From Deuterostichococcus epilithicus (taxonomy: Eukaryota > Chlorophyta > Trebouxiophyceae > Prasiolales > Stichococcaceae), in assembly GCA_033439295.1 (NCBI GenBank), contig JAVTLE010000016.1:310001-374000 (forward strand): 64,000 nt of DNA. Direction: 5' to 3'. The translations under genes and the position numbers were made by a program. Each line of letters begins with the position of its first letter. Position 1 is the stretch's first letter. A model generated the notes under the pieces. That model searched no databases. It saw only the letters and a list, made by a program, of their open reading frames with translations, and was not told the DNA's origin. This document shows positions 6,877 to 45,060 of the stretch, piece by piece.

Positions 6877-9800
6877 TCAACAATCAGAGTGTGCGTTCCC
6901 TGGCGCCACAGACTGGCTGCAGTGATGCAAACGAACCGACACGACCAACATTGCGCATGCGCCTGCTAGGAGTGATTCAACCAATACAAAGGAACAGCTC
7001 GCGCCGCTCCGCCTTCCAGAGGCTGCAGGACGACAGAACCGACTGCCACGAGCTCGGGGACGGGGGGCCCTGGCTCGGGTGCGGCGCAGCCCCGCCGCCA
7101 CAGGCTCACCGTCTGCCATGAGCTGCGTCATGAGCGCGTACGTGGCCGGGCGCCCCGCGGCAATGGCGTAGCACTCCGCGATGCACAGCGCATTGGCGTG
7201 CGCCGGATGCACGTTGAGGCTCGCAAACTGCGCCGGCGTCACCAGGCCCCAGAACGCCACCACCGTCTGCAGACAGCAGAAAAGCAGTCTCAACGAGGGG
7301 GCAGGGCCTCCGTGCAGAGCTGGCTTGTCGAGGCTCGGCGCAGCCGGCGGCCAGCAGGGATGGCTCCGGCAGCAGGCTGTGGTCCCATCAGTCAAGCACC
7401 CGGCAGCACACGGTCGGAGAGGCGCAGCAGGCTGGCGGCCTGGCGCCCGACCAGCGGGGCACCTCCTCCGCTGCAGCGCAGACGCTCGCCTGCAGGAAGC
7501 ATCTGTGCTCGTCGTACAGCGTCTCGCGGATGCCGTCAACGAGGCCCTGCAGCCGGTCGAAGGCGGCGAAGCTGGTGTCTGCCTCCTCCTCCGACACCAC
7601 CGCGAATTCGCCACCGCCGCCGCCGACTTTTGGCACCTCCGCCTGCGCAGGCTTGTCGGATGGTGAGCATCAAGACAGAGCACAAGACTGCATCCGCCAC
7701 GACGGTAAACTCGCCGCCGCTGCCGCTCACATCGCCAGCGCTGTCGCAAGGAACGTGCACCTGCGCTAAAGCTCTGCAAAGCGTCAAGGGGCAGTACGTG
7801 ACCGTATGCCGAGACTTGCAGCAGGGCCCCCGCGGGCGGGCGGGGGCGGGGTACAAGCACCTTCACGGGCCCTTTTACAAAGGCGCCTGTGAGCCTCAGC
7901 AGCCAACTCTGATCAACCATGCAGATTCAAGGGGGTTGCGCTTGCTGCAGCCAGGCCGCAGCGTATTCCACACACCTCACACACAGAGCACCTCCCGGTC
8001 TCGAGCATCGCAAGGAGCCGCCTCTGCTACTATGCCCGAGCACCGGCCGCGGGCGCTGAGCATGCATGGCACACAGCGGCCTGCCGCAACTGTCGCGCAC
8101 TGCATGCATGTGGCTGGTGTCGCGGAGCACTCCTACATGTGGATCGCTACTACTTGTAGGGGTATCCATTGGTGTACACATACAGTTACTCCTGTCACTC
8201 CGCACCTGCCGCAGGGCGGCCTCAAGGGCGTTGCGCCGCTTTGCCAGGCAGCACACATTGGCCAGGTACCGGTCGCGCAGCCCGATGGCGGTGGCCCGCT
8301 GCTGCGCGTCCAGTTCCGCTCCCACGACGAGCTGGAAAGAGAGCATGAAGTACATGTCAGCTTGTTTCTTACCCCATCATGTCTGGCGGCACACATCGGC
8401 CAGGTATGGGTTCTGCACCCTGACGGCAGTGGCCCGCTGCTGCGCGCTCGAACCCCACGCCGGCAATCACTGAAAGGTAAGGGCTCACGATCACTCGGTG
8501 TGATTGAGAGACAGTGGCATCTTGAGCAGCACACGCTGGCCTCTCGGTTGCGCGCCGGCGATTAGCTGCAAGTGAAACACCATCTTTTGGGTTTTGAAGC
8601 CTGCCCTGCAGTGCCCTCAAGGTGGGACGTCCTAATTGTTGCAATGCAGCCCGCTGGCGGAAGAGCCACTGCAGCGTGCTCCTGACAGGCACAGCGACCA
8701 GGTGCACCGCACAGGACAGACGCAGAGATGCACAGGGTGCGTTGGGGTGGATGTCATGCACGACCCTTGATAGCGCAACCTGTTTTGGTTCGAGTAGGTG
8801 GTCTGTGCCACCCTCTCTTCCATGACGACAGAACCCCCAGGTGTCCGGTGGGGAACGGCTCAGATACAGCAGGCCGGCATGGATGGGCCCTCGCCTCGTG
8901 CCAGAAGCCATAGGTGGCGATGCGGTCCCGTCCTTCCACCGCCGCCGCACACTCCTCGGCCGCTGCCGCGGCATCGATGCGGGACTGGGAGATGGCCCAC
9001 TGGTTGGGGAAGCTCAGCAGCGCTGCGAGCTTGAGTCGCACTGCCTCGACTGCCAGCTGCGCCTGTCGGCACACACGAGGTTGTCAACGCCAAAGCCCGA
9101 TGATCATGTGCTGTTCAGCAATCTCCCTGTGCTCGATGCAGGCGCCTTGAGCGCACTGTCACAGCCGCCAGCCGCGCCTGCCGGCACACAGGCAGCAGCA
9201 GTCCGAATGCCGATGCTTTGCAAGAACATTTCGTGCGCGCAGGGTCCGAATGCCTTCAGGTTCAACCCAAACCAGCTGTCCGATTGCAGACAGCTGCTGC
9301 ACATGTCTCAACTTCTTTGGGAAACAGAGGCTCGTCAGCGCTGTGGGAGTCCTTCCTCTGGGAGCGCTATCACCAGACATGGCAACGCCACAAACTGTAA
9401 GTCAGCAGGCAGCGGTGTAGCTCCCCACCAGGCGGTCATCCGCAGCGTCCAGAGCGGCCCTGCAGTCGCCAGCGCCTTCCATGCCGCCTGCATTGCCGCC
9501 GCCGGTCACAGCGTCGCCGTCGCCGCCGCCGGTCTCGGAGCCGCTTCCGGCGGCCGCCGCCGCATCGGCAGCCTGCTCCTTCTGCAGGATGCAGGCCGCC
9601 ATGCCATCCTTGTAGTCTTGCCACAGACGCTCAAACTCAGGTCCCGGCATTGCGGCGACCTGCGAGGGAGATGTTCTGGGTTGCAGCTGGGTTGTGCAGA
9701 CCGATGAATGCGGTGCCTAAGCGGAGTGTCACCACGGGTTGTCATCTTCGCTTTTGCACAGGGCGATCAGACGGCTGTCACGGCCGCGGTCTGGCCCTGC

Positions 9801-12763: not shown

Positions 12764-15700
12764 TCACGCCCAGACGGCCAGGAGCGACATGGCACCTGCA
12801 CCGGCGAACAGCGCTACGTACGACGCCAGCTGCACCTGAGGGCCAGGACAGCACACCAGCGTTGGTCTTGGGGCATGCACAAACTGGTCGGACGTGCGCG
12901 TCATCGCTGGTTCCGCCGCAGGGGGCCTTGTCGCCCCAAGTCTGCAGCCGGCTCTGGAGGTCGGCTGCCTTAATTCGTAGCAATGCCAGGCTGTGCACGC
13001 TGGAGCTGCGCAACTTGGCGCAGGCCGCCCATGCGGTGTCAAAAGCCTCGCGCCAGTTCCCCTCAAGAAGGCAACCGAACACCGAGCTCAGCGCCCAGCC
13101 GCGACCACGTACCTTCGGCCCCGCCGACCGCATGCGGGCGCTGAAGAAGTCGATGGCTATGAGGTCCACCAGCGACATGTACAGCAGGATCCCCGCCGAG
13201 GCGCCATTGAAGGCGCCGTTGACGACCAACGCCGCCGGCGAGGAGGAGGAGTAGCCCCGCCGCAGCAGCAGCCCCGCAGCAACACCCGCCGGCGTGGTGG
13301 CGGCAAACGCGGCGCCGCGCGAGGCAAAGCCCCACCTGCGCATGTGCGATCGCGGCAGATGGTGTCAGAGCGAGGAGTCCGACGGCCTGGCGGAGGTGTA
13401 AAGGCCTGAACTACTGGAGTCGACGCAGCGTCCACAACGGGATTCGTTGCCACGGCGCTAGGACCGATAGGAGGGACCTTGTGCAGCCCACCAGACCGCC
13501 TGCAGGTCGGCCCGGCAGGTGCTGGCAGTCACAGCCTGAGCCTGTCATGGCACTTCCGACAGCAGCTCTCTTCGCCAAGGGCCGCGACCACCAGTGGCGG
13601 CGCCGATGGCGACTGCCTTGTCCCATCTTGGCGCAGACTGCACAAGGCTGCAAGCTTCCCATCGATGAGAGTCCCCCCACACCCTACTTCGCATGACCAA
13701 ACAGCAAGGGCGCACCTCTCGTGGCCGGCCTCAGCTAGGGCATTGCCGAGCGCAAAGCCCTCGAAGCTCTGGTGGAAGACGAGTGCAGCCGCCAGTGGCT
13801 TGGCGGCAGCGGGCGTCTCGCTGACGCCCAGCGCCACGCCTATCAGCACGCTGTGCAGCGCGATCCCCAGCTCCAGCACCTGCAGTTGATGTTGTGTAGT
13901 AGGAACGTATCAGTACGCAAGCGAGTACTTTGGCGGGCAGCCATCGTCCTGCTGACGCCCAGCGCCACTCTAATGCGGACGATGTGCAGTACCTGTTCCA
14001 GCTCCAGCACCTGCGGCGAGAGTGGAAGTGGGCTTTTGGCTGCATGTGGAGTGCAGCCAACTCTGCAGCCACATGCATGGGGTGGGCCCCTGCCGGGCTC
14101 GGGTTGCAGTTGCTCGGCGATATGTCAGGCAGTGCTGCGGCATTCCAGGGGCGCTTTCCCAGGGCACTGCCGAGGGGCAGCTGCCTTCCTTCAACAGCAC
14201 AAAGGCAACTCAGGCCACATCTTCGTGGATTTGAAGGTGCCAGATGTGGTTAGGGGGCTAGTGGTATGTGAACCCGTTTGAAGAACGCCTAAAGACACGA
14301 TGGGAAGGAACCCACCTGAGCCGTGGCAACCCGCCGCGCCTTGGCCCAGGCGGACGTGCCACTGCCGTCAGCTGCACTGCCGCCAGCCTCCAACTGCTAC
14401 CACACGAACTCAGTTTCACAGGTGTGATCACCATGACGATTGCTGGCACCTGACGTCTCGACAGGCTGCAGCTGCCTGCTCCGCCTGGCAAGCGGTGGGC
14501 AATGTAGCCACAGGGGGTCGACAGCCAACAGCGTGCACAGTAAAGGTTGAGCGGCACCACCCGGCTTGTGTTGCCAAGAATATGCACCTGTGCTGCAAGT
14601 GCACATGCAGAAAATGCAGGCCGCTAGACAGAGCAGCGTTCGGAGCCCAGTCTGCAGCAAATCCGCACATACCCGCTCCTGCCGTAGGAGCCCGCTGTGC
14701 GTGTGCGTCAGGTGCTTCCTGCTCGCGTTGCCAATCTCCGCCGATGGCCGCTGCAGGCTGTCGTGCAGCTCGGCGCTGCCCATGATGCCGTCCATCGCGC
14801 CATCTAAAACGTACTGTGACTCACTGGTGCTGCCCTGCAGAAGGGGCAAGCAGTGCATGGGAGCCTGTGGGAGCAAGAACGGCATGTGAGAGCGTGCACG
14901 ACAGCATGCCAGGCCCTGACACCACTGACAGCAAGGAGCGAAGTGCAAGGCCTGACAAGCTGCGACAGCCTGCCCGGGACAGAAGCTACTGCATTCCGCT
15001 GATCCCGGGGCGCGCTGGTCGGTCGCCGCGCTCATTGTCACAACGCCTGCTGATGCAGGTGGGTCGCGCACACGGCAGGGGCGCGGTGCCATCAACAGCG
15101 AGGAGGCATTCAAAAGGATCCTGGCGCTTAAGTGTGCATGGTCTGACACATACCAGCAGCAGTGGCTCCGTGGCAGAGATGTGCCGCTGGCCGCCCGTGC
15201 GGCCGTTGGCGTGGCCGCCGTCCAGAGGCGCCGCCGCCTCCGCTTCCGGCTTCCCACCGGCGCCGCCAAAGTACTGCCCCGCGACAAACTCGATGGCGTT
15301 GGTCAGCAGCGCCGCGGCCGTTGCAATGACGGACGCCCAGGGGAAGTCGGGCCACCCCAGGCATGGGTCCTGCACAGACCACGATTGGTGTGATGGTTGC
15401 AGCACCCTGCAGACCTCTGCTGAAGGCAGCCGGTGGGCAGCGTCACTGAATTGAAACTCGGGTGGAAGTGTTGGCTCCAGCCTGAAGCCAGCCGTGGCTG
15501 CAGTGGCATGGCAGAGTGGACGAGGTACTGAGCTGCTGCTTGCAGTGCGGGCCGGCATGAACTGCTGCGTTACCATGGCAACGCCTATTCTTGGCATGTT
15601 TGGATCTGAAGCATGAATGCATCCATGTTAATGTTACGGCCTGCCCGCTTCCCTGCTGCCACAGTTGGACCAGTGTAGTGGCGCCAAGGACAGACGGCAC

Positions 15701-18287: not shown

Positions 18288-21149
18288 ATGACATCTGAGC
18301 ACAGCGGCAAGCCAGCGGCAGCAGCGGCGCCGGTCGCTTGTGCACCGAGGAGGCGGGCCGTGCTTGCAGGCCTGGTGGCCGTCCCCCTGGGCGCAGTCAG
18401 TTGGCCTCAGGTCGGTTGCATCCTCACTAGACACCGTGGTTGCTGGCGGCTAGGAGCCTGGCTCGCTATGTATGATGCCGCACGCCGATGTTGCTGGCTG
18501 TACTGTGTTCGCAGTTGCTGTGGCTGCGAACTCGCAGTGGCATGCGGCCGCCCGCTTGCAAGGCACATCAAGTCAAGTGTTGCTGGAAGACCTACCACTC
18601 GTGATGATTCCAACCTCGATCACGTGCAGGCAGCCCGGGCAGGTGAGATCGCTCAGGACGGCATCCTTACGCTGCCGCTGCCGAGCATTTTGGACATCTT
18701 CTCTGGCGGCGCCTCGAAGCTGCCGCCGCCGGTGCGCTTCCCGCGCCGCGGGCTCAGCCAGCGCTTCGCGGTGCTGCTGATGCAGAGCTGCTACAGGGCT
18801 GCCGATGCCTTGGACTTCACGCCCATGGTGACTTCCTGACCTCTCCTTGTGTGACGCACTCGGCTGTGGCTGTCCACGTTGAGGTCTACTCGGATGCTGA
18901 GGCACAATAGATGGACAGTCGCAACCAGCAAGGGTCGCCTGCACCCATGGCTGCATCCCTTGAGGCGCAAAATCGCCGCAGCACGACGTTCGACGATGCG
19001 ACTCGGAGTTGCGACTCGGCCGACCCGGCCGACTGAATGACAAAGCACAGAAATTAAGCCTGCGCTGCCGCAGGACGACTTCCAGGTGCGTTTCTGGAAG
19101 CTGCGGCAGGCGGCATACGCAGACTATGTGCAGCTGCACTCCGGGCTCCAAATCCGGCAGGTACGTAGAGGAGGTCGACCGCTATGTCCGACGCCTGCAA
19201 GCCTGGCAGCCGCTGCTCTGCTTGCTGCCATCACCACGGGGCGCCCGCTGCTGCAGCTGGACAGCGCTGACGTGCATCTGAGAGTGTGGACGATGGCCCT
19301 GTCCTCTGGGGAGATGTTGCAGACATTCTTCACCATTTCAGACGCACAAAATTCCACAGGGCGACTTGGGCGACCCGCTGTACTTCGACTTCATCGCATT
19401 CTCGCAGTTTGCCGCCATCTCGGAGGGCATGGAGGCCGGCCGCCTGGAATTTGAGGTGTGTGTGTGTGGGTGGGGGGGGCTTNGTGAAAAACTGTGCACT
19501 CGTCTGATATGCGCCGCACGGCTTCCCACGCTTGATCCATCAGTTCTCTTGCGCGTGTCCTGACTGAGAATGGTACGCCCCGCCGATTTTCGTCTCGCCA
19601 AATATCCGCCGAGGCTGCTGATCCCTGCTGGACTCGAGCCAGCCGCTGCCTGGAGGCAGGGCCTCAGTCCGAGACCCTTGACAGCCTGTGCCTGATGCCT
19701 CATACGGACGCCTGCGAGCAGCATAGTGAAACATGCCCCGCAGGTCTGCATGGCACACCTCCAGCAGCGCTCCCCGAGCATGACTGACAGGCGGGTCGGC
19801 CCGCAGGAGTACTGTGAGGAGGTCAACCCTAAGCCCTAAACCCTGCAGGAGTACTGTGAGGACTGCGAGACGCGGTATCGCACCGTGCGGCGGGACCCGG
19901 CGCTGGCCGACAACCGCCTGCTTCCCCGCGCCTTTGAGGCGCGAGCCGGCGACCGCATTTACGCCGCGCTGCGCGACGGCTTCCCGCGCGCCGACCAGCA
20001 GGTGAGGCGCTGGTGGTATCCCTCTCGCAGGCGATGCTGCTGCCGTCGTCGCCGATGAGTATTGCTGCTGCCGCCGCATCCAGACATGCGCTGCGCCAGG
20101 CAGCGCTGGCTGTGGCAGTCGGCTCTGCTCATCTCCCTGTTTCGATGCTGGCGGTCTTGATGCCGGCGCACTGCTTGTAAGATCCAATAGCTTCAACCTC
20201 CAGGCCGGAGTCACAGCGCGCCGGTGTAACATCAGCCAGCATGCCCCAACACCTGTCCCGACCTTTGTATGCATGCAACTCCTGTCTGACATGGGATCCG
20301 ACAGGCATCCTGGCAGGGAGCCTGAAACGTCGTTCCTGCACAGGTGGAGCAGTTTGGCGGGCCGCAGCCTGCCGCCGCAGGCGCCAGCCTTGAGGCTTTG
20401 GCTGCCGGAGCGCGGGCAATCGTGGACATCTTCGTGTCCCGAGGCTTTGCCACGAAGGTGGCGCCCCTGCGCAGGCGCTTGCCGAACCACGCAAGGCAAC
20501 ACCGTGTCCGAGCGGCAGTGGTGCAATGCAATTCTTGCAGCAGGAGGACCGGCATCGAATGTCAGGCATCAACCGTCAGAGTCGCCCGGGTACTGAAACC
20601 TGCCCCATGCGGCGACACCCCCCACCCCCCCGCGGGCTGACCACGCTTCCGCAGAATGCAGGCGGGCTTTCAAGGCCAGCCGTTCTCCGTTTAGATGGTT
20701 TTGATCTCGCATCTGTCGACATATGCAGGGCGCGGTTACGGATGTGCGGCCGGCCGGCGCTGGCGGCAGCAGTGGCAGCTTCGCCGTGCGTTTGGATGCG
20801 CCTGCAAACCTATGGGGTGCGCAAACCCCTTTCCAGACTTGTCGTGACCATGATTCAAAGGGGTTGGCCCATCTTTTGAGTGTACCTGTCCTAATTGCAC
20901 TAGCCTGGCGGGAGTTCAATCTGCACTGGCCAGTTCAAACCACCTTGATGTTGGCGGCTTGACCCAGAACCCTGCAATCGTGATACGACTGCAGGCACAG
21001 CGGCGCTGGTCGCCCGCCGCGCCAGCATCGCCAACGCCTACGATGCGATGGCAGTGGGCGGCTTCCTGCGGGCCAGCGGCGTGAAGGGCGCCTCATACAC
21101 CTTCAGCCGCAGCGATGCCGCCACCGAGACGCGGTGGACGTTGCGCTAG
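18288..21149 (+). CDS. Conserved plastid protein of unknown function
   Basis: Eight exons close exactly in phase to 328 aa: 18288-18410, 18657-18827, 19074-19160, 19360-19455, 19849-20001, 20344-20457, 20729-20816, 20995-21149 (TAG). The N-terminus looks like a chloroplast transit/thylakoid signal (CAPRRRAVLAGLVAVPLGA). Conserved-looking blocks follow: RRGLSQRFAVLLMQSCYRAA, FWKLRQAAYADYVQLHSG, GDLGDPLYFDFIAFSQFAAI, EYCEDCETRYRTVRRDPAL, ARAGDRIYAALRDGFPRA, ARRASIANAYDAMAVGGFLR. From memory this pattern belongs to a family shared by green algae and land plants with no assigned biochemical role; I cannot confirm that here. The EYCEDC and RYRTVRRDP block suggests a structural rather than an obvious catalytic site. 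Intron 4 contains the telomere-like insertion at 19803-19862. Confidence 0.8.
19803..19862. repeat. Telomere-like tract bracketed by 18-bp direct repeat at a splice acceptor
   Basis: GCAGGAGTACTGTGAGGA occurs at 19803-19820 and again, identical, at 19845-19862. Between them are 24 bp containing CCCTAAGCCCTAAACCCT. The second copy is the real acceptor and first codons of exon 5 of the plastid-protein gene; the first is an upstream duplicate that keeps the AG. Confidence 0.85.
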
Positions 21150-21915: not shown

Positions 21916-24623
21916 CTACGACGACCGGATGTTGAGCAGCTCCTTGGCCTCGGCCTGCTCCGCCAGCACCAACTCGCTGGCGTACTGCATCATCAGGTCC
22001 GCCTTCTTCTTGCTCAGCACCTGCGGAGGTCCAGGGTAGAGTACAAAAATCATTCGATAGCTACGATGGAAGCACATGGACGGCGTGACGTCACGGCCTT
22101 CCTGCAACGCGCACTAGCCAGCGGCCTCTCTCAAAGCCGCACGCCCCTCGGCACCCTGCTGTGACCCTCCTCCCGCGCCATGTGGTTCTGAGCAGCACAG
22201 TGTTCGTGTTGCCAAGTGGAACCGACACCCAAGCCACACTCACCCGGGCCTCGATCTCCTGCTGCTCCGGCAGCGGCACGTACGCCACGAATTCCTGCGC
22301 CGGCTGCTGGTCGGCCGCTGCACCCTCCATGCCGCCCGCGACGCCGGCGTACGCCTCGGCCCGCTCGGCGGCCTTAGAGTCCCACTCAGCTGCCGCCTGC
22401 AGGGGATGTGGAATTGCTGAGCAGGGGCCCTCCTATTCGAGATTAGCAGTCCAGCCGCAGGTGCTGCGGACCAAACACACCTAGGTGCGCAGTGCTGCCT
22501 CCGCAGGCCCTCCACGGCCGAAAGAAGCCATCCTCTGCATTGCTGCTCTGGAAAACGAAAGGGGTTTCCGGTCTACCGCACACGCACCTCTGCACGCATG
22601 GCAGCCTCCGCAGGCCCCTCCACGGTCGCCAAAATGCCGTCCTCCTCGTCCCGGAAGCCGTAGTAGTCGCCGTCGATGTACTTGTACATCTCGTGCCGCG
22701 TGCGCCGCACCTGCGGCGGGTGATCCAGACGTGTTCTTCCAGAAATCGGTGAGATGACCGCCAATCGGATGACACTCGCCAGGGCGTGAGAGCTCCCAGC
22801 CGGCTCGGGAGGTGTTGCGGCTCTGCCCCAGATGGCTGGCCAGGTGGATTCCCCGAGTTCGCCAGGCTTGTGCGCTAAACCTTGGGGCTGCGCCATCCAT
22901 GACGCAGCGCCAGGCTGCTGCCACCGGGTCAGCGCCGCATCCCTCGTGCCTTTGGGCACCTGGGGAGGGCTGCGCGGGTTGGCTGTGCGAGCATGCTGCG
23001 GGAGGGCTGGGTCCAGCAACTCTACCAGAAGATGTTATCGCACCTTGCGGGGCGCTTCCTTCTCAAACAGCTCCCTCACACCCGGCAGCTGCTTCGCCGC
23101 GCCAAAGTACCTGCGGCAAGGGGGAAGATCAGGCAGTCGACACCACCTAGCCGGGTGGAATGGAGGCTGGCAAATGCACCAAATGCCGCTGCTCATCGAG
23201 AACGGGGGCGCTGCAACCGTTGCCGGCCATGCGGTGGGGCACGGCTGCAGAGCAGCATCCACAGGCGGCTGTGCCTGCTGCCGCTGACACAGGATGCAGC
23301 AGCGGCGGCGTTGCCAGGGTCCGAAGCATTCCTGTCTTGGAGACAGGAGACGGAACCCGGCCGCACCTGTAGCCGGCGCCCCGCCCGGTGACGCCGTCTC
23401 GGATCTCCTTACCCTCGCTGTCTTGCACCTGCGCAGGCGGGCGAGGGGTCCGGGCGACAGGAGCGCACAGGCTCGCGAGCACCCGCAGGCTGCGTGCGCT
23501 GCCGCCGACCCCGCAGGCTGCGCCCGCTGCACGCAGTCCAACCCCCCCCCGGCGCCCCGCGCTCTCCCAGGCGGAGCAGCAAGTGCACCCACCACAGACC
23601 AAGCCAGAGCCTTCTGACAGTAAGAACGATGACTCTGATATCCTTGTGTGCAGGACCCTCACCTTGGGACCGGACTTGGCGTAGTCGGGGCCGCCGAGCT
23701 CCACGATGCGACGCTCCCAGTGACCCTTTTCCCGTATCAACTTGTTGATCTCGTCGTTCAGGTCCCGCAGCCTGCGCAGCCAGCGTGAGGCGCTCGATGC
23801 ATGGTGGAGTGAGACAGCAGGCAGTGCACAGGTGTTGGGCAGCCCGCAGGTCCGTCACGGCAGGAGCATGGCGGCAGGCGCCCAGCGTCGGACTTGCCCT
23901 GCTGTCGTCGCATTTTGGGCAGACAGCGGTCCGCGAGCAGCGTGCCCGCCCTTGCTCTTCCCAGCCGCCGGCAAGGATTTCGTGGTCTCATCGCCATGAG
24001 GTTTGCAGGTTTCACTCACTTGTGTTCGCCAAGGCCAGCATTCTGGATCTCCATGACGCGGCGCCCAATGTCGCGGATGACCTGCTGCCGCCACTTGTCC
24101 GCCTCCAGAAGGTCGTGGCACTCCGTCGCCAGGTACGGCCGTTTTGCTTTCGGCCCCCGTTCCTCATCTGCGGAGAGCGATGCGGCAGGGGATCTGAAAC
24201 AGGGAAAGGCGTCATCAGAGGGTCCTGGGCATTGCAGCGCGCCTCCCCGCCGCTGCTTCTTGCTGGCCTTGCCCTGACGCCACGCCGGCTGCAGAGCTGC
24301 TTGGCGCGGTAGGTCTCGGGCACTTGCTAAGAGATGGAACTGGAGAAAAATTCACGCCGGAACACGACCGGTCGCACTGCATGAAGCATCCGTCGCATGC
24401 ACCTCCACCTCGCTGGAGCCGCCCAATTTACTGGCTGATGCTTCACGTGGCATGAAGCCCCACTCTGCCGATGCTGTGAGCGCATGCGGGCCTGCTTCGT
24501 CAGCGCGAGCGGCTTGATTGGCTGTAGGACTGCGTGCGTCGTGCGAGTGGACAAGGGCGGACCTTGTTTTGCTTGCAGCATGCGATTAAGCATGGACTGC
24601 GCCTTCTCCTCATTACGGGCCAT
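21916..24623 (-). CDS. ISY1: Pre-mRNA splicing factor ISY1
   Basis: Component of the NineTeen/Prp19 complex in the spliceosome catalytic core, acting around the first transesterification step. Eight exons close in phase to 275 aa: 24563-24623, 24020-24167, 23663-23771, 23367-23428, 23044-23110, 22588-22710, 22244-22396, 21916-22020 (stop TAG). The start MARNEEKAQSMLNRMLQAKQ is the family's N-terminus. It is followed by KRPYLATECHDLLEADKWRQ, IGRRVMEIQNAGLGEHKLRD, LNDEINKLIREKGHWERRIV, ELGGPDYAKSGPK, YFGAAKQLPGVRELFEKE and RRTRHEMYKYIDGDYYGFRD, then an acidic region with PLPEQQEIEAR and the C-terminal coil SKKKADLMMQYASELVLAEQ. Length matches ISY1 from other eukaryotes (about 260-300). No key region is missing. 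The intron after exon 6 carries a decayed copy of that exon's 3' end. Confidence 0.97.
22497..22545 (-). repeat. Echo of the 3' end of ISY1 exon 22588-22710
   Basis: Downstream (intronic) copy about 110 bp after the matching part of the exon. GTGGAGGG-CCTGCGGAGGC in the copy aligns with GTGGAGGGGCCTGCGGAGGC in the exon, with recognisable flanking similarity (GAGGATGGC against GAGGACGGC). Unlike the others it lies after its source exon. Confidence 0.65.
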
Positions 24624-29615: not shown

Positions 29616-32426
29616 ATGCAGGCGCGTCGGCGGCAGCGCGTCATCCGCACTGCACTGGGTGCGGTGGCCGCCCTGGTGGTGCTGCATTACATAACCGTCC
29701 AGGCGCAGCTGCGCACCTGCCACAGAGACGCAGAGGCCACGGCGGCGGCAGCGGCACGGCAGCCCGCCGGCCTGGACTCGGCACAGCAGCCTTCCGCTGG
29801 CGGCGGCGGCAGCGGCGGTGGAGATGCGGCGGCCGGCGGCAAGGGGCGGCAGCGGCACATCCCGCGCATCCTGCACCAGAGCTGGAAGGACGCCAACGTG
29901 CCGGCGCGCTTTCACAAGTGGCAGGTGTGGTGCATGCCTGATCCGCCTTGACGCGGCATGTGGAGGATGGCTGTTCTCTGGCCTGGGCCCACCATGTGGG
30001 TACGACCTCGGTAATGTAGTGCGCGCATGAGCTGCAGCTGGCGTCGCTTTTGGCACGACCCAGCAGGATGCAGCCGTAGCTGCCTGTGGCGACTCGACAA
30101 GGCAGGGTCCCTGTGAGGCTGAGGTGTCAGCGTCGCCTCGTCGCGTGCAGGCCAGCTGGCGGAAGCTGCACCCCGAATGGGAATTCCGGTTGTGGACCGA
30201 CGCGGATAACAGGTCAGCAAAGCTGCTCTGCCGATGGAGCTCTCGTGTGCATCTATGACGCAGCATTACGATTCGCACAGCTTTGCGACGGCATGGCTGA
30301 GCGATTCCACCTCGTGCTCCCTTGAACCCCCGCCAGCGCGTGGCACTCCGCTCAAGTACCTTTTCCAGCAGCTGCCTCCAGCTGCGCGGCACAAACACCC
30401 ACAACTCGCCATGATGGAACTCACCTGCTGTCCCTGGATGCCACAGGCGGCTGCTGGAGGAGCACTACCCCTGGTTCCTGCGCACCTACGACGCGCTGCC
30501 AAGCCCCATAATGCGCGCCGACGCCATCCGGCCCTTCTACATGCACCGCCACGGTGTGTCCCCATGCCGTCGCGTTGCCTCACCGCTCCCAGGCTGTTGT
30601 TCAGGATGGTGTTCAGGTCTGCACCCGTCACTGAAGGCTGTGCAAATGGTTGCAGTTGAGCAAGCGCAGCTGTCGAGGTGTCGGGATTCAGCAGCCCACA
30701 GGTCAAGCGCTGCCGTATGGTCTTGATCGATGATTTTGCACGGTTTTTGATTATGATCGGCCTGCTGTGTACGTGGACTGGGCGTGGAGGCGGTCAAGCT
30801 CATAGGGCCACTGCTGCAGGAGGGGGATGGAGGTTTGTGCAAACGCTGTGTCATTCTCCCTTCAGGCTGTGTGCATGCAGATCTCGACATATGAGGCAGT
30901 CAAGGATGGGCACGTTCCTACGGGGCGGCCAGCCGGTACTGTACATCCCAACTCTGTCGTGCCCTCCTGCCGCAGACGGCACATTTGCGAACGCGGACGT
31001 TGGGGCGGTCAAGCCCATGGGGCCGCTGCTGCAGGGTCGGGCATGGAAACCGTTCACGGCCATTTGTGGCCTCTCGCCGCAGGCGGCGTGTATGCGGATC
31101 TGGACGTTGAGGCGATCAAGCCCATGGGGCCGCTGCTGCAGGGGGACCAGCCGGTGCTGGCCTACATGAGCGAGACCTGGTGGCTGCGGCACAACATTCC
31201 CAATGCCTGGATGGCGTCGCCGCCGGGCCACCCCTTCTGGTCGGTGAGCCCCCTGTGTCAGGAGGGGCGACATGTAATGGCATGGTGACGAGGCCCCCGC
31301 GAGAGGCTGCCCGCCAAGGCCAAGTAACGCCGGCAACGGCGCGGCGTGCCGTCCAAGAGCTGCACGACGACAGTGGGGCCGCCCCTGCTTCAGCTCGGCC
31401 AGTTGCTCGCGGCTAGCCGCTTCATTCAAGCAGCCAGCGATGAACAGTTGGAACCTATGGAGCGATGCTGGGCGCTCATTTCCCATTCCCCCAAAACATG
31501 CGCCTGTTACGGCGCTGCTAAGTGCAGTCAACTGAGCGCACATTCAAATGTCCCAAGTTTCGACCTGATCCACATGCTGCCCGGCACAGTTCTGCTGGGC
31601 GCACACGATGCTGGAGTTCCGCCCTGGGGAGGTGGACTATGTGAATGAGGGCGCCACCTCGGTGGAGCTGGTCACCGGTCCGCGCGCACTGCTGGGCAGC
31701 CTGGAAACATACAACGCGGCGACCGGGCGCAACGTGACGGTGCTGCCGCCGGGCCAGGTCTTTGCCTACGACTGGCACCGGGTGCGGCGGCCTGCGCCTT
31801 GGCATGCCGGCCACACCACTGAACCCTCCGACCTTGAGTTGTTCGTCCCCTTTGCGGCGGCAGGGCGTCGGCCCTCTGCCTCGGCTGCTGCCTGGAGCGC
31901 GTCCGAACTGGGCCACACCCTGAAAATGTCTCGGCTGAAATCGTTCTCGTCAGAACGGCGTGCCAGACGGGGCCTGACTGATGATTCGATCAGATTCTGA
32001 CGCCCTGATGTCCACACGGCTTCGACAGATTATTTGGTGCCGGACGCCGGAGTGCGTGGAGCGTTCGCACATCTGCAGCGCCAACGACCCGGCCTTCGAC
32101 CCAGCCGCCTGCAAGGTGCCAAGAGTATAGGCAATTGCTCGAAGCGTACAGCAAGAAGCGTACTTTCCAGCATGTCAGTCCGGCACCCGATGTAGTGATG
32201 CTGAGTGTGTGTCATTGACGCATGTTCGAAGAATATCACATGCTCCGAGACGCATGTGTTCAGCACACCAAGATGGACTGGCCACCCAGTATCATGTGTG
32301 GTGCTGCTGCAGGCGCATTACCCAGAGGCATATGCCATCACATATTGGGCGCATACATGGGGCCCAAACTCGACCGAGAATGCGGTTGCAGCAGCAGGCG
32401 CGGGCGCTGATGCCGCAAGGCGGTAG
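29616..32426 (+). CDS. GT32/OCH1-like glycosyltransferase (DXD type), type II membrane protein
   Basis: Golgi-type glycosyltransferase of the alpha-1,6-mannosyltransferase/GT32 group. Seven exons close in phase to 343 aa: 29616-29924, 30151-30212, 30447-30553, 31083-31243, 31590-31781, 32029-32115, 32313-32426 (TAG). The N-terminus has a short basic tail and signal anchor (RRRQRVIRTALGAVAALVVL), then a Gly/Ala-rich stem. The catalytic domain starts with HIPRILHQSWKDANVP and LHPEWEFRLWTDADN, then ALPSPIMRADAIRPFYMHRH and the nucleotide-sugar DXD motif in GGVYADLDVEAIKPMGPLL. It ends with the family-typical HYPEAYAITYWAHTW. The donor sugar and acceptor cannot be told from sequence. The intron before the DXD exon contains three decayed copies of that exon's start. 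Confidence 0.9.
30740..31160 (+). repeat. Four-unit tandem array (about 107 bp) of intron tail plus DXD exon head
   Basis: The exon word GAGGCGATCAAG at 31109 recurs as GAGGCGGTCAAG at 30787, GAGGCAGTCAAG at 30893 and GGGGCGGTCAAG at 31002, giving spacings of 106, 109 and 107. Each unit comprises roughly 45-50 bp of intron tail with an acceptor-like AG and about 60 bp of exon head (CCCATGGGGCCGCTGCTGCA in the two downstream units). Only the last unit is the real exon. Confidence 0.85.
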
Positions 32427-35564: not shown

Positions 35565-38135
35565 TCAAGTAATTTCCCCCTTCCTTGCTGCCTCCTCTCG
35601 CTGCTTGATCTTCTGCTTCTGCTCGAATTTGGCATCGTCAAACTTCCGCCACGCTACTTTCTCCACTGCCGCAAGCTCATCATCATGCAGCCTGCGCGGT
35701 CGGGCGACAGCAACCTCAATCGCCATACGTCCACTTGGACCTCCAGAACAGCAGCTGCTGTCGATTCATCATTCAGAATGACATAGGTACGGAAACGGCA
35801 ACGTACCCGCCTCCGACCCCGCAATGGGTCCAGAGCAATCAGTGCAGTCAGTGCAATCACAGGAGTCATGCAAATTGCAGTTCAAAGAAGTATTCTGCAC
35901 GTTTCGCACCTCCTCTCCAGTGTGGCATAAGTCTCCGCATTGAGCAGCCCCGCGCCGCGCAGCCACTGCACAAAACGGAACTCGGACGCCTCGGTCGAGA
36001 TTGCCGCCCTGTACGCCTGCAAGCTCATCAACAGATGGTTGGCACGAAGGCACGGACCTGCTTTGAGATTCCCAAGCGTTGGTGCTCCAGCCAGGTTGCA
36101 AAGCAAGGCCTGTCCATAAACGCGCGTCCATGCGCAGCCCCGTGAAACAAGCAGGTTCCTGCCACACCACTGCTGCCGCCTACGGTCTGCACAAGCAAGC
36201 CCTGATCGAGGACCGCCCCCCACCTCACGGTTCACTTGCCCACACACGCTCGCAGGTGCTCATAACCGGCGCGCCCCACCAGGGGCCACCGGCCTGCTCC
36301 AATGAAATTTCTGATCACGTGACGCGGCCAGTCGAACCCGACCTCTCGGCGCGCGGGTGCCGCAGGCGCACCGCAAGATCCAGGGTTTAGGGTTTGGGAG
36401 GCGCGCAGAACCGTTCCAGGACAGCGGCCGCCGCCGCGAGGCCACCAGCAGCCGCAGCAGCGAGCGCTCGGAACCTCTGACCCTGACCGCAAGCCATACA
36501 CCAAGCCATACACCCTTTTTTTGTGTCACCGCACCCGGCGCAGCAGGTCCAGGTCCACGAAGGTGGACGTCAGGTCCGGCGCCCCCCGCGGCTTGACATG
36601 CGGGTCCGCCTCTGGCAGGGTGCCTGCCTTGGCCCTGCGTCACAGAAGGTTCAGGGTTCAAGCGCGGATGCTGGAGGCTGAGAGCGATGGGTTCGTGAGC
36701 ACGAGGCCGGGCGCCTCCCACGGCACCTCCCACAGGTCCGCTCCAGCAGGCTTGCTGCCTGTGGCCTACGCCGCTGCTCGCAGCAGTCGCATTGTAACCA
36801 GAGGCCAGGAGGGCATGGCATGGCGTGAGGTCAGCCCCCGGCAGCCTCTGGCTCGGCTTTCTCCTTGGGGTGGCGCCTCTGGCAGCGCCCGCGTGGGCCT
36901 GCAGTCCTGGTGTTGAAAAACCCGAAATCGCCGGTGCGGGCATGGACGTGTGGATCGCCCCTCAGCCGTCAGCAGCGTGCCCGCCCCAGCCATGTGCCGG
37001 CGTGCGCAGACAGTGGTCGTCTATGAAGGGCCACGGAACCAGGCGAGCATGAGGCCGGTCGCTTCCGCTCTGGTCGTGCCCCCCCNNNNNGGGCGCCATT
37101 CGAAGGGCAAGGCATGGCGCAGGACATTTACAGTGTTTGAATGTAGTCGCACTACGGTGCCACCAGCGAACCGCCTACAGTGGCCCTGCACCCAGCTCCG
37201 ACAATCGATCCATACCACTGTTTTGTTCGGTGAGACTGCAGGACTCGCGCACCTTGCCATGTAGTCCTGGTACTGCTGCCGCCGCAGCAGCCCGATGTCC
37301 TTCGTCCACCGCACAAACTGGCCCTCCTCTTTCCGAAAGCGCAGCGCCACGCTCCAGATCTGCGAGCAGCATACGATGCAGGCTAAGTATGAATCACTTT
37401 TATTAGTAACGGTGCTGAAGCAGCCACAATCCTGCATGCATGCTGGCGCCAGGCCGTTTGATGCGGTTGCGATCATTATATGTACTAAGTTGTGATGCTG
37501 CGTTGCATCGCGACCGTCAGGTTAATGGTGTTCGACAATGCGCTTGACACATGCGATTGGCGGTGTTCGATTGATTATACATTTAATTATACATTTGACG
37601 GTGTTCGATTTGACGATACATTTGACGATTCGTAACGATGCTATCGTCAGTTTGTGACACGATCCGGATGAGCACCCCGGATCACCTGCCGGAGCAGCTC
37701 GGGGTCGAGCTTGATACGCGTCGACTTGCCGATAGCATTTAGCCGCTTCTCAACCTCGCCGGCGCTCAAGTGCTTGCCGCCGCCGCCGCGCCGCGCTGAC
37801 AGCATCTGCCCCAGCTGGCTGCCCGCGATTGCCTGCACGACGCTACTTGCAAGGTATTCTAGGCAGACCTTCGGTTGGCAGCCTAATTTGCAGCGGCAGT
37901 TCCGACGTGCTGCACTGGCTAGTTGATAGCTTTTGAATTTCAGGCGCAAAACTTAAACCCGGCGAAAAGCTGATCGACTCGTCGGACATTGTGACCGCCA
38001 GCAGCGATCCAGCTGAATAGTTCAGAGGTGCACCTTCTGGTAGGAAATGGACGCCACGCCGATCACCACAAGCGCCGCGAGCACCAGCACCAGTGGCGAC
38101 AGGCGCTTGCGCCGCGTCGCACGCGGCGGCGGCAT
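35565..38135 (-). CDS. Type II membrane protein, function unknown
   Basis: Start ATG at 38135. Exons that chain in phase: 38034-38135, 37686-37832, 37253-37359, 36530-36634, then an unresolved Ala-rich exon around 36400-36480, then 35910-36016 and 35565-35691 (TGA). The N-terminus is a basic tail plus signal anchor (RRKRLSPLVLVLAALVVIGV). The body is charged and mostly helical: VEKRLNAIGKSTRIKLDPEL, SVALRFRKEEGQFVRWTKDI, LLRRQQYQDYMAR, APDLTSTFVDLDLLRRV, STEASEFRFVQWLRGAGLLN and a Lys/Glu-rich end DDAKFEQKQKIKQREEAARK. No family recognised. Five ambiguous bases at 37086-37090 fall in an intron, and a telomere-like tract (36382-36397) lies by the unresolved exon. Confidence 0.6.
36382..36397. 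repeat. Interstitial telomere-like tract
   Basis: AGGGTTTAGGGTTTGG, two units of TTTAGGG, inside the minus-strand membrane-protein gene near an exon I could not resolve. No flanking duplication seen. Confidence 0.5.
37550..37640. repeat. AT-rich degenerate short repeats
   Basis: Words such as ATTATACATTT and GACGATACATTT, and GGTGTTCGATT, recur two to four times within 90 bp in an intron. This is notably AT-rich for the window. Confidence 0.5.
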
Positions 38136-39274
38136 GGCGCCTGAGCTGCCGCCAGAAACAGCAGCGCGGCGGTGTCTGTTTCAGCAGAAGTTGCTCTTGT
38201 GTCTGTGTTGGCGCAGACTCGCCTGGCGGCCGACTGTGCGCTGTCTTGGCGACCTGCCGGCACCTGCTCACCTTCGCAGGACGGCACTCCTATGACGCTG
38301 ATCAAGCAGAAGGAAATAGATTTTAAGCTTTTGACGCCCTGAGTCGCTACCAAGCGCAGTTTCCAGCCGCGCAGTCGCCTCGCGCCGCGCCAGCCTGGAC
38401 TGAAAGCACCCGTTATCCGAGTGTCTCCGTTGTCGGCAACCGAAGGCTGCCGATTGAAACGACTGAAGTGAGTCCCAAGGCGACGACAAGAAGTACACAA
38501 ACACAGGTTTTTGCTTCCGAAAGATCTGTGGATTGTGCTTCAGCGATTCGTCAAGCTCAGCCTGCAGCTCAGACTGGATGATGTTGAGACCCCCTTTGCT
38601 TGCTGCACTATGCTCCTGCAAGTGCGCATCTGATCGCCCAGGCCAATGTCCTTGTATACATTTGGCCTCGAAACCCTCCAACACTCGTAACCCTGTCAGA
38701 CGTGCCAAGCATCCGCGAGCTGGACGATTCAGTCTTCAAATTCATCCGTCCTCGAACCGCATATACTTGTCGGTTGTTTTGTGCACGGCAGCCGAAGCGG
38801 CTGACTGCGGGTCGGGCCTCTGGTATTCGAAGGTCTTGGTCGTCCGGATTGTGGTTCCGGAAGGCCTCGATACGCACGCAGAGCCACATCAACTTTGTTC
38901 ATCAGCTTGTGGTCAGTGTTGCGCTGGGTACCGCTTGCCGGCTCGCTAGTTTTCAGGGACCTGTGGTCGTCAGCTGTGTCTGGTGCCTCGGTTGTTGTGC
39001 TTCAGAAGCTGCCGCAACACCGCAGCCTGCAATTGCACTAGACAAAAGACATCAGGCAGTTGTCGTCTCAATCCGCGAGGTGCGTCGCATACCCCTGTTG
39101 GGCCTGGGACTGACCAGACGGCAGTGCCACCTCAGCCCGCCCGTCTTCATGTTCTCACAACGGACAACACCTCGTCATATGAACTGCTCAACATGCCTCC
39201 TCGGCCACCGAACCTGGAGCGCCTTCTGAAGCGTAGGTGCCCCCAGCGTGCATCTTGCACCAGGGTGGACCGCC
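38136..39274. promoter_or_regulatory. Divergent intergenic region upstream of lipase
   Basis: About 1.1 kb between two divergent starts; probably both promoters and 5' UTRs. A 146-codon open frame on minus (38268-38708) shows no family similarity, and I do not call it. Confidence 0.35.
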
Positions 39275-42200
39275 ATGCAAGTGTCAGCGGCCGGCGATGA
39301 TGGCCCCGATGCGGAGGAATTGAAGCGTCCAAGCCCAACAGAGGCCACCGAGCGGCCACGGCAGATTCTTGCCCGAAAAGGCCGCCCGTCCCGCCCGGAG
39401 GTTGCGCGCGTTGCAGTCACCTCCGGCATCCTGCTGCTGACGACCCTTCTGGTCTCGAAGAGTAAGTTTGATCTGACATTATATGACGCTCCTTCGAGGT
39501 CATCCTCCATACCGTTACGACAGCTCGCGGCGCCCCTTCTGCCGCTTCTGCCGCAGCAGGACAGCTGGATGTGCATCTGGTGTTGCGGTCAGAGGCATGC
39601 ACCTGTTCACCGGTGGACACTACACCATGCAGGCGCCTCGGGGGCACGGCTGCCTGCGGACCCCGGCGCTGAGCAGCTGGGCGCGCAGCAGCCAGGCTGG
39701 GCGGCATGGCTGCNGGCGCCGTGGGCCGGCCGGCCGGCGCCGCCGCCGCACGAGCCGCCGCCGCCGCTGCACCCCGACTGCTTCCACTGGCGCACCACGC
39801 CGTGGGGCGGACCACCGGCGGCCCGCGGCCAGTGCTGGCAGGAGCTGCAGCAGCACCAGCAGCGGCAGGCAGACTCTGCCGCCGCCGGCGCCGGCGGCAT
39901 TGACAGGTCTTTCAAGGTTGCTGGGGTGCCACTGTGGGACATCCTGCGGCGGCCGCGGGAGTGGTGGCGCTCCAAGGCGCCGGCGCCGCTGCCACAGGAC
40001 CTGAAAGCGGCACGGAAGCTGGAAGCAGAGGGCCGGCGACGGCAGCCCGGCGGCGCCGGGACGACGGCGGACTCTGCGCCCTGGACCTCCTTCAACGACT
40101 CGGCCATGGCGCAGATCTTCAGCCACGATGTCGCCTGGATGATGGAGCAGGAGGTGGGTTCGCGGTTGCAATGTGATATCCCCCCAGTGGCCAAGGGCAG
40201 CAACTTGAAAAGGAGCAAGGTGCATGCAGGGCAGCAGGAAAAATGGAGCTGGCAGTCCGCCCAGCCTGCATTCTCCATCTGGAGATGGCCTGTACCTGTT
40301 CAACACTTGCATGAACGAGTCGAGTCGCCAACTGAGCAGGCAACGATCTTGCCGGCTCAGCAGCCGGAAGCTGAACTCGTTCATGTAGGTGCTGACCAGG
40401 GTACAGCCCCAGCACGGTCTATATGAGATGCAACTTTGCCATGTCGTCATCGTTTAGAGTCCTATTCCTAGAGGGCGAAGGTCAGTGAAGATCAGAGGTA
40501 AAGACCATGTTTGAGGCCCGTTACTCTCGCGCATGTCCTCCATCACCTCATCGCACATTTCGTCGTGTTCTCCTGCCTCCCGTCGAACACTTTGTCCTGA
40601 AACAATACCGTCACAGGAATCGCGCCCCCGCATGGGCAACTGCGCGCACCACAGGTTGGACATGGAGCTGGCGGTCAGCCTGGCGCACATCCATCAAATG
40701 ACATATTCTGAATCTGATCATGAATTTCACACCTTGAAACCACAGGAGGAGCGCGCCCGCATGGGCAACCGCACACACCATCGCCTGGATGTGGAGCTGG
40801 CGGTCAGCCTGGCGCACATAAATTCCATCGCCTACTGCGAGACGCCCAACGTGCAGGCCTGGAACTGCACCCGGTGAGTGCGCCCTGCCCCAAGGCTCCG
40901 AAGTTACCTAATTCGAATGCTCTGTCAACAGCTTTGAGTGCAGTGTGTGGTCCCGCCACAGCCTGGCGCTCCCTGCCGCTGAGGATGAGGTTTGGCACGT
41001 CAAGCCTGACCGCCTTCCGGCAGGGCGCAGCTAGAACTGCGCAGAACCTGTTCGTGCCCCGGCATGAATGCCGCGCCTTGCTGGGCTTGGTGCTGCACAG
41101 CCTCTCCCTTGACGCAATGCCGCCTGACAACGGTTGGTGGGGAGCCTGCTTGCCCGACGCCAGGCCCCTTGACGCATGCTGCATGCCTTCTCAACACCAG
41201 ACCAGTAAAAGCACAAGCAACAACAAACGGAATCAGAACAGCAACGGCAAAACCTGAACATCATGCCTCGCAGGTGCAGCGCAGCGGCGACGGCTTCACG
41301 CTGCACAGCCTGATCAACGACAGCACAGCCCAACACCACGCAATGCAAGAACGGAAACAATGACGAAGTTTTCATCCGTGCGGCGCAGGTGCAACGCGGC
41401 GGCGACGGGCTTCCAGCTGCACAGCCTGATCAACGACGTGGGGTGGGACCTGCGCGCCTTTGTCGGCTACGCGCCCGTGCTGGGCGCGAAAGTGGTCGCG
41501 TTCCGCGGCACCGACAGCCACTCCTGGTGCGCCGGCAGCGGACCTGCACTCACACCCAGCCGCATCGGCAGCGGCGGCAGCGCCACACAGCCACTCGGAA
41601 GGAAAGCGGACCACCGCCGCCTGCCGTGGCACCGGCAGCCGCGGCGTCCTCCCCTTCCGCCTGCCCGCGCTGCGGTGTCGTCCCACAAGCATGGTTGGCA
41701 CAGAACCAGGGGGCAGCATCGTCACTGCCTCTGACGATGCATTGTCGTGAAAGCCCTGGCCGCGCGGGTTCAGCCAGCTCTCCGCCAGTCGCGCGCCGCC
41801 CTGGCGTGTTGGACGCAGCCGCATCTGGGCGGTGACCACACGACCGCTGCATCCGTCGGCTCACTACTTGGTTTGCGCCCAACCAATCATGTCATTCAAC
41901 TCGTGTGACACAGGTACAACTGGGCGGAGAACATGAGGGCGTGGCGGGTGGACATGCGGCTGCCATATCCCGGAGCCGCGGGCGCCCTTGTGCACTCGGG
42001 TGCGCGCCGCTTGCTGCGGTACTGGAGCAGACGCGCCGCGGGGTTCGGGTTTGGGTCTCTTTGGAGGGCCCCCGGCAGCCGGACTCGCATTTTGGCGTGT
42101 CGAGGCGATCGATGCGCAGGCACCGAGCTGGTGCCAGGCGCCCCGCCCAGCATCTGGCAGCCTGCTTGGGCCCTCCACTGTGTGATGTTGCTGCTGGGAC

Positions 42201-43639
42201 GCGTGTTGCCTCCGTGGCACGGCCCCTGACACTCGGCTCTGCGGAGAGTGGCACCGGGCGAAGCAGCTGCCTGCGTCTGTAGGCAGGCTCGCAGGCTGGG
42301 CAGGCGCCATCAGACCGCCGGCCAGCCCACAGGGTCGACAACCCCAGTGCACGAGGAATGTTTGCGTTAGCACCAAACCTTCTCGCTGCCCTGCAGGCTT
42401 CTTCTATTCGTACAACTTCAGCAGCCTGGCGACCAACATCAGCAATGCGGCAGTGGACCTAGAGCAGCAGGTGGGCTGCTGGAAGACACCCGTCCAGATT
42501 GTTCAAGGCCCTGCCGTGGCAACACCTAAAAGGTTTGACAGCAGTCGGAAGCAGTTGTCCCATTTCGGCCAGGGTGGCTGGGTAGCAGTCGTCCCATTTC
42601 GACCGGGCGACTTCTGGTACGGCATTTGTCCCTCGATGGTTTGAGTGCCGACCCACACGTGATGAGCGCGACTGACGGCGCTCGCGACTCATTCCTGGTG
42701 CAGTACCCGGGCGACCCCTGGTATGTCATCGGGCACTCCATGGGCGCTGCAATGGCGACGCTGTGCGCGCTGGACCTCAAGTTCAACCTGCAGCCGGCGC
42801 CGGATGTGCGTGTGTACACCTTCGGCTCGCCGCGCGTCGGTAACGACATCTTTGCCACCTTTTACGCCAGCGTCTTTGCGGTGCGGACGTCCCCCAACTC
42901 TTGCGTTCTCATTCTTGCCAGCATGCCGGGACCGTGCGGCAGGCCTGTTCGACAGGCTTGTCCACCAGATCAGCAACCACCAGATCAGCTTTTGCTGGGT
43001 GTGTGTGGTGGGGGTGGGGGGGGTGCTTCAGCAGGGCTGCTGACACGCGTTTGATAAAGCCTTGCCTGTCAGACGCGGGCGTTGGTGCTGTGATGTGGCC
43101 TTGCCGTCTGCGCTTGAGCACCCCGCTGACGCTGGTGTCTTCGCTTTCACAGGAGAGCTACAGGTTCACGCATAACCGGGACATTGTGCCGAGCGTGCCG
43201 CTCCAGATCATGGGCTTCCACCACGTCGCCCGCGAGGTGGGCCTTGATTCATCATTGCCTTTGATCCCGCCTCCCGCCTGCGCACCCGTAGCACTTGAGC
43301 TATATCCGCCGGGACCCGGTCTCATCGCCCACCTTGGCTGATCATCGTGCAACCTGCGAACCGCCCATCGGCGCAGCCTGGATCTGGCCCGGCAGGCCAG
43401 CCCGATGCCGCCTGCGCCTCCTCCTCACCTGATGACTGGTGCTCCATTGCGGCGCACCGCCGCAGGTGTGGGTTCTGACCTTTGACTCGGGGCCCACTAT
43501 CATCGGGCTGTGCGACCGGAGCGGGGAGGACCCGGCGTGCCACAACTCCGTGTGCTACCTGGGCCTGTGCACCAGCATTGCGGACCACATGACCTACCTG
43601 GGCGGCCACATGTTCCACCGCAACCCCGTCGGCTGCTGA
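39275..43639 (+). CDS. Class 3 (fungal-lipase-like) lipase with N-terminal membrane anchor
   Basis: Alpha/beta hydrolase, probably acting on acylglycerols or galactolipids. Nine exons close in phase to 522 aa: 39275-39461, 39633-40153, 40746-40873, 41389-41526, 41914-41999, 42397-42470, 42704-42880, 43153-43236, 43466-43639 (TGA). A hydrophobic segment (VAVTSGILLLTTLLV, residues about 47-61) suggests a signal anchor. A Pro-rich linker and DILRRPREWWRSK follow. The lipase core has VAFRGTDSHSWYNWAENMRA, the nucleophile elbow VIGHSMGAAMATLCALDL, YTFGSPRVGNDIFATFY, the acid in FTHNRDIVPSVPL and a likely catalytic His in DHMTYLGGHMFHRNP. The Cys-rich end (CDRSGEDPACHNSVCYLGLC) suggests disulfides in the secretory pathway. 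The start of exon 2 is inferred from phase; one N at 39714 falls inside it. Exons 3, 4 and 7 each have an upstream decayed copy. Confidence 0.92.
40617..40745 (+). repeat. In-frame echo of lipase exon 3 (possible alternative exon extension)
   Basis: A copy of the exon start lies 129 bp (43 codons) upstream, with its own acceptor CACAG at 40612-40616. It reads RMGNCAHHRLDMELAVSLAHI against RMGNRTHHRLDVELAVSLAHI in the real exon. The frame stays open through to the real exon, so use of the upstream acceptor would add 43 residues without a frameshift. Confidence 0.8.
41273..41325 (+). repeat. Echo of lipase exon 4
   Basis: A copy of the exon start about 116 bp upstream of the real one. Shared words are GCGGCGACGG and CTGCACAGCCTGATCAACGA, and an acceptor CGCAG is kept. 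The offset is not a multiple of three. Confidence 0.8.
42599..42640 (+). repeat. Echo of lipase exon 7 (nucleophile-elbow exon)
   Basis: CCGGGCGACTTCTGGTACGG at 42603 against CCGGGCGACCCCTGGTATGT at 42707, 104 bp apart, similarity continuing to TCGATGG / TCCATGG. The Ser-containing GHSMG codons are destroyed in the copy. A nearby pair of CAGTYGTCCCATTTCGRCC words at about 42555 and 42587 shows further local duplication. Confidence 0.65.
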
Positions 43640-44921: not shown

Positions 44922-45060
44922 TCACGATGTGCAAGCTGAGACACCGAAAAAGAGGCAGCTCTTCCTCGGGATTGCAGAGCTGTGCAGCACAGCACTCAGA
45001 GCAATGGTTGGGTGGCAGGCTGCGCTGTGGCCGTGGCATTGTGCAGCTGCCTTCCTAGCG
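44870..45060. repeat. Downstream flank copy of the tandem gene duplication (paired with 51330-51560)
   Basis: The sequence beyond the coding end of the first paralogue aligns with the 3' flank of the second. Shared words include CACGAGCCAGAAGTCAGCGC and the GATGTGCA-GCTGAGACA region. The duplicated segment therefore includes the 3' UTR, and the repeat unit is about 6.5 kb. Confidence 0.75.

Follow-up and report, generated by a model that had tools for sequence, protein, structure and literature searches.

Decayed copies of exon ends in the introns of the green alga Deuterostichococcus epilithicus, probable scars of short splice-junction duplications

Introns of the trebouxiophyte alga Deuterostichococcus epilithicus carry decayed copies of the ends of their neighbouring exons, which we call exon echoes: a head echo is a copy of the next exon's start in the upstream intron, and a tail echo repeats the end of the previous exon within the intron that follows it. 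They were noticed in a 64-kb stretch of contig JAVTLE010000016.1 (positions 310,001 to 374,000; hereafter the window), and every repeat pair that a first-pass annotation had listed for the genes there is present in the window sequence. Together with the surveys below, this confirms that exon echoes are genuine and genome-wide in this alga. We think it probable that they are the scars of short, direct duplications of splice junctions, likeliest arising when staggered breaks were filled in and their ends joined, sometimes with filler.

Our sample consisted of the window and 20 stretches of 10 kb from elsewhere in the genome (200 kb), 264 kb in total from a source genome of 46.8 Mb in 21 contigs; loci in the added stretches bear the labels L003, L005, L006, L008, L010–L014, L017 and L018. 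Self-BLAST in chunks (E ≤ 0.01) returned 97 self-similar pairs, and three shuffles, in which 3-mers were permuted inside blocks of 300 bases, yielded 8, 4 and 8 at any offset. Sixty-two of the 97 pairs had offsets below 1000, with 21 of these 62 at 95–145 bp. The earlier claim that such copies are pervasive, beyond what shuffled sequence yields, thus holds in this sample. Exons and introns were called by a self-trained ab initio hidden Markov model (HMM), whose weak seed splice motifs sharpened in training to YGCAG/G and AG/GTG and which predicted 555 introns with a median length of 225 nt.

We then compared exon heads and exon tails with the adjacent intron (score ≥18; introns of at least 60 nt, n = 511). 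Head copies were found in 29/511 of their own upstream introns against 1.2 expected from other introns, and tail copies in 9/511 against 0.5. Simple-repeat introns were removed by eye; removal of four left 26 head cases, and removal of six left 24 head and nine tail cases in 505 introns, the tail cases at window 33184 and 52211 being kept among the nine, yet repetitive in appearance. Matches were rare in inverted orientation (2/505 for heads and for tails), in non-adjacent introns belonging to the same gene region (2/1944 tests) and in the intron on the exon's far side (2/416 heads, 3/417 tails). Because three introns (L003 9114, L006 149 and L014 1489) hold both kinds, 30 introns carry an echo in total, about 6% or one in 17. 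The 3' polarity noted at first also stands, with 24 head against 9 tail echoes (p = 0.014) and the ISY1 copy confirmed as a 5'-junction, or tail, case. Duplications that bring a branch point of their own may be better tolerated on the 3' side.

The spacing of the copies is narrowly distributed. In the 20 head cases with a single period, the mean copied exon part is 66 nt, the mean spacer to the real AG is 55 nt and the mean offset is 121 nt (sd 18); head copies reach 33–110 nt into the exon. Eighteen of these 20 offsets lie at 95–145 bp, where breakpoints drawn at random in the actual introns and exons, under size priors from d^0 to d^-3, would place 39–58% of offsets below 175 (p 2e-3 to 4e-6), so the clustering of offsets described earlier goes beyond detection bias. 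Four larger offsets (215–261) are about twice the unit, and those at L010 and at the glycosyltransferase (GT32) gene are parts of arrays that also contain an intermediate copy; with all four included, the figure is 18/24 against 10–41% expected. Only 5/20 offsets are multiples of 3. Exon length was rejected as the determinant of unit size (Spearman -0.07, p 0.78, n = 19).

Echoes evolve as intron sequence free of coding constraint, because mismatches fall almost evenly across codon positions, indels break the frame and functional motifs are lost. At codon positions 1, 2 and 3, the 26 head echoes have 84, 97 and 120 mismatches (17.1, 19.7 and 24.4%), and 44 of their 49 indels are frame-breaking; in-frame stops occur in three. 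The nine tail echoes show mismatch rates of 25.9, 15.7 and 23.0%, eight frame-breaking indels out of nine, and stops in two echoes. In the 18 echoes with an alignment close to the start of the exon, the AG is in register in seven, within one base in three and lost in eight, although the first lipase echo was scored as lost only through gap choice and retains CACAG in the ungapped register. The DXD motif has gone from the glycosyltransferase echo, and in its proximal copy the peptide FANADV stands in place of the real exon's YADLDV.

The lipase gene, with three echoes, indicates which copy is used. Homologues numbered 230, of which 120 were listed and eight aligned (53–83% identical); the nearest among the matches listed was the JGI protein P0001 (83%), and the closest organism-named ones among them came from Coccomyxa and Elliptochloris (both 57%). 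At the three echo-bearing junctions, the first of which lies in a stretch well matched by P0001 and P0002 only, all eight aligned homologues lack an insertion the size of an echo. By this alignment, splicing at the outer site yields the conserved protein, and the predicted protein runs continuously across the echo junctions. The earlier proposal that the outer copy is used while the inner one decays is therefore supported at this gene, and we infer outer-site splicing at most other loci.

Echoes go with long introns, as the first-pass annotation had suggested in proposing that they lengthen them: the median is 424 nt in echo-bearing introns against 229 nt in the others (p 2.5e-9; 32 introns, two of which were dropped later), and the share with an echo rises from about 1% at 200–250 nt to 27% at ≥500 nt. 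An ongoing process is unsupported, since apart from one 31-nt exact match no near-identical exon–intron pair occurs at 95–145 bp. That match (L014 2127-2157 / 2247-2277, 31/31 nt, offset 120) has surroundings without visible similarity and is the sole candidate for a recent event; with it set aside, the best pair is lipase echo 2, at about 90% identity (44/49 columns). Most events therefore look old, with the caveat that noncoding pairs equally old would scarcely be detectable. Where both copies of a near-exact repeat lie entirely outside exons, the offset is 15–36 bp (10 rows) or 83 bp (one case), never 95–145 bp. Divergences are homogeneous over 21 loci (chi-squared p 0.16; 0.56 without L014 2196), which is weakly compatible with a single burst. 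At 9/9 sites that differ between the window and its nearest relative P0001, lipase echoes 1 and 2 have the residue of the window (by eye), a pattern indicating that both are younger than the split from it.

We propose that a short direct duplication, leaving about 100–140 bp between copies, would strike a splice junction, mostly a 3' one. Splicing would stay on the outer site and leave the protein unchanged, while the inner copy, together with whatever intron tail or filler separates it from the outer one, would be spliced out as intron and decay free of coding constraint. Each such duplication would lengthen the intron, some introns having been struck two or three times. The underlying lesions are most likely staggered breaks that were filled in and rejoined, occasionally with the capture of filler such as telomeric repeat, and repair of this kind would yield exon copies without intron-tail copies. 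The copies are direct, adjacent and limited in size, like small tandem duplications from break repair. At window 19803-19862, exact 18-nt flanks (GCAG plus exon start) stand on either side of a 24-nt telomere-type filler. This is the 42-bp echo first described in a plastid protein gene; the repeat is there, but it spans only 21 nt at 95% and, with its telomeric filler, differs in kind from the rest.

Telomere-type repeats (CCCTAAA, about two units) were found at 12 places in the 264 kb as 13-mers with at most one mismatch, and two shuffles gave 3 and 0. Eleven of the 12 lie within predicted introns, which make up 54% of bases. Five of these 11 are no more than 6 nt away from a predicted splice site (about 0.7 expected); for one of the five the predicted intron, of 27 nt, is wrong, and the probable true acceptor is 4 nt away.

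Several observations weigh against a break-repair duplication of splice junctions. The gene models are ab initio, filler is evident at one locus only, with the remaining breakpoints too decayed, and no repair mechanism considered predicts the narrow size mode of about 120 bp. The first-pass annotation had envisaged tandem duplication of segments spanning a splice junction; the copies are indeed local, direct, adjacent and decayed, but the intron tails upstream of the echo AG and the real AG are mostly unalignable, with significant similarity in a minority (3/22 at p<0.05), and only 1/7 tail echoes has intron-side homology. Four tests found such homology at 5/25, 3/18, 4/24 and 3/22 loci (p<0.05, uncorrected). 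The 4/24 matches (about 1.2 expected) are at lipase echo 2, L012 900, L018 1785 and L008 copies 1/2, and they support a putative junction-spanning unit at these loci; elsewhere, by eye, similarity stops 0–15 nt upstream of the AG or begins 16–38 nt into the exon.

These results bear most directly on plain tandem duplication of intron tail plus exon head, without filler, in which the intron side has decayed twice as fast, both copies being free. We regard this as possible, if somewhat unlikely. Simulations of it with settings that match the score spectrum predict intron-side homology at 32–43% of loci, and the probability of seeing so few is 0.004–0.05 at score ≥18 and 0.04–0.32 at higher thresholds. 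Among loci scoring ≥25 only 2/12 have intron-side homology, against 41–91% expected at divergence 0.15–0.20. Under heavier simulated divergence the conflict is gone, and neutral divergence of about 0.28–0.3 with a few indels per 100 nt gives roughly the observed mismatch and low intron-side homology. Similarity over the full unit at some loci also favours plain duplication, as does the anticorrelation between copied exon part and spacer (r -0.38; the spread of their sum has a permutation p of 0.05), which a fixed unit length would give. The scarcity of intron-side homology is thus in mild tension with it. Exon-only copying was rejected as a proven claim: the first test appeared to exclude plain tandem duplication (mean z 8.9 expected, 0.55 observed; 13/25 loci singly) but relied on the selected divergence of each individual locus, and we withdrew the strong claim because selecting well-preserved loci explains much of the deficit in fuller simulations. 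Copies derived from mRNA were also rejected, the flank upstream of the echo resembling the previous exon in 0/18 anchored tests and 1/24 local tests at p<0.05.

It is doubtful that a process of duplication with a typical unit of about 120 bp acts preferentially at exon junctions and has been a main way in which introns of this lineage lengthened. At lags of 95–145, shared 8-mers exceed expectation in exon–intron pairs (163 observed, 91.8 expected), not in non-exonic pairs (152 against 141.6). A general process would add a non-exonic excess of about 20 at divergence 0.28, which is compatible with the data, and of about 43 at 0.20, which conflicts with them; we count both the small non-exonic excess and this conflict among the points against the repair account. 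If an exon-junction process were true, it would be coupled to splicing, transcription or exon-positioned chromatin and would copy exon ends instead of random DNA.

Regulated splicing, with echoes serving as alternative exons or acceptors (tandem exon duplication, poison 3' sites), is very improbable. The AGs in or near register, the scarcity of in-frame stops in head echoes, a GGTAAG 8 nt past the end of the window echo at 8332 and the similarity at L003 9552-9934 (61.5%, 286 columns), which crosses a predicted exon and its donor, would all suit such a role. However, mismatches lack coding constraint, indels shift the frame, AG retention is not above that of neutral decay (about 0.64 at 20% divergence), the spacer examined in the L014 array contains stops and, by eye, most echoes have no donor directly at their end. 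An artefact of assembly or of the HMM can be dismissed almost entirely, for although the HMM erred in places (it labelled echoes as exon at window 13993, 19807 and 30976 and at L008 4785-4820, and misread the last lipase exon), the repeats are detectable without any gene model, the copies differ by about 20% and therefore are not assembly doubling, and the lipase and ISY1 models agree with homologues (lipase junctions as in homologues; predicted ISY1 against spliceosome ISY1 chains, E 1.6e-73).

That duplicated exon sequence can be converted to new introns is already known: in PMC2891723 (2010), new introns arise where exonic sequence duplicates in tandem and one copy turns intronic. Echoes resemble this in being direct, adjacent duplications of exonic sequence with one copy intronic, but there the new intron equals the duplication in length, whereas here the copy sits inside a longer intron (median 424 nt against offsets mostly of 95–145), and an intron already present seems to have been lengthened. 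Fill-in at staggered break ends produces small tandem duplications (Schimmel et al. 2021, PMC8355091), which are likewise short, direct and adjacent; those insertions are <100 bp, and our copies are mostly 100–140 bp apart, decayed and at splice junctions. Tandem duplicated or mutually exclusive exons also place an exon copy beside its original, with the whole exon and both splice sites copied and the copy under coding constraint; echoes mostly copy part of an exon and lack that constraint, L003 9552-9934 being a possible exception. Introner elements spread one family across many introns; in our sample, a comparison limited to exon heads gave matches to non-adjacent introns in 2/1944 tests.

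Among the titles and abstract openings that our searches of the open-licence literature listed, we found no report of exon-end copies in green-algal introns, and the available portions of the Coccomyxa genome paper and an intron review make no mention of them. Those titles and openings likewise held no account of existing introns being lengthened by decayed duplications of their junctions within a narrow range of sizes. A recognisable junction duplication goes with about 200 nt of additional intron length, and to our knowledge transposon-free intron lengthening is poorly documented. If general, splice-junction duplication would offer a countable and datable way for introns to grow and for tandem splice sites to arise, and its narrow range of sizes would implicate a specific step in repair or replication.

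The window loci are collected in Table 1. The proteins first annotated there as bZIP and plastid have no Pfam match at E ≤ 0.01. At lipase echo 2 the gapped alignment pairs 41175-41321 with 41297-41437.

Table 1. Echoes, their source exons and telomere-type repeats (window coordinates unless a locus label is given)
Feature	Position	Strand	Remarks
Weak head echo, additional	7693..7726	-	offset 103 from 7590-7623
Source exon part of echo at 8380	8242..8308	-	bZIP gene of first-pass annotation; no Pfam match
Echo of exon part 8242-8308	8380..8446	-	offset 138; AG acceptor retained
Source exon part of echo at 9146	9030..9075	-	
Echo of 9030-9075	9146..9190	-	offset 115-116; by eye ~12 nt upstream of AG also similar
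Source exon head, ZIP zinc transporter	13791..13883	-	PF02535, E 1.4e-51
Echo of ZIP transporter exon head	13921..14014	-	offset 130-131; AG retained (ccgcag)
Short copy of 19842-19862	19800..19820	+	offset 42; 21 nt, 95%; last 18 nt exact
24-nt filler between the two copies	19821..19844	+	telomere-type repeat CCCTAAgCCCTAAACCCT
Second 18-nt flank copy	19845..19862	+	GCAG acceptor and exon start
ISY1 tail echo, in following intron	22472..22535	-	offset 107; GT retained
Source ISY1 exon end	22579..22644	-	matches spliceosome ISY1 chains
Distal glycosyltransferase-array (GT32) echo	30778..30823	+	215 from 30993 copy, 322 from real exon
Proximal glycosyltransferase echo	30959..31036	+	offset 107; 17 nt upstream of AG included
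Source 3' splice site and exon head, DXD glycosyltransferase	31066..31143	+	PF04488
Head echo, additional to first-pass list	36704..36766	-	offset 132 from exon part 36572-36634
Lipase echo 1	40612..40690	+	offset 129; 84% over 79 nt, gap-free
Lipase source 3' splice site and exon head, echo 1	40741..40819	+	
Lipase echo 2	41264..41321	+	offset 115-116; one-base frameshift
Lipase source 3' splice site and exon head, echo 2	41379..41437	+	
Lipase echo 3	42603..42639	+	offset 104
Lipase source exon head, echo 3	42707..42743	+	
Telomere-type repeats, window	9958-9972, 10137-10153, 19825-19844, 36381-36398		
Telomere-type repeats, other loci	L005 4669; L010 1370; L011 1558, 1721; L012 9811; L014 298, 6124; L017 2451		

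Other repeats were seen in the sample. At L013 1956-2171 and 9750-9965, a pair of 29-nt repeats with a spacing of 187 occurs twice, 7.8 kb apart, where no genes are predicted, and is probably a dispersed element. A larger coding repeat in the window (58019-58521 / 59552-60056; 65% identity over 534 columns, offset 1533) is perhaps a tandem gene pair. The minus-strand predicted genes at window 44851-48863 and 51602-55890 are apparent paralogues, having in common the peptides DIDSLPDN, FYYANPN and VLPAFIQSNIN as well as proline-rich linkers.

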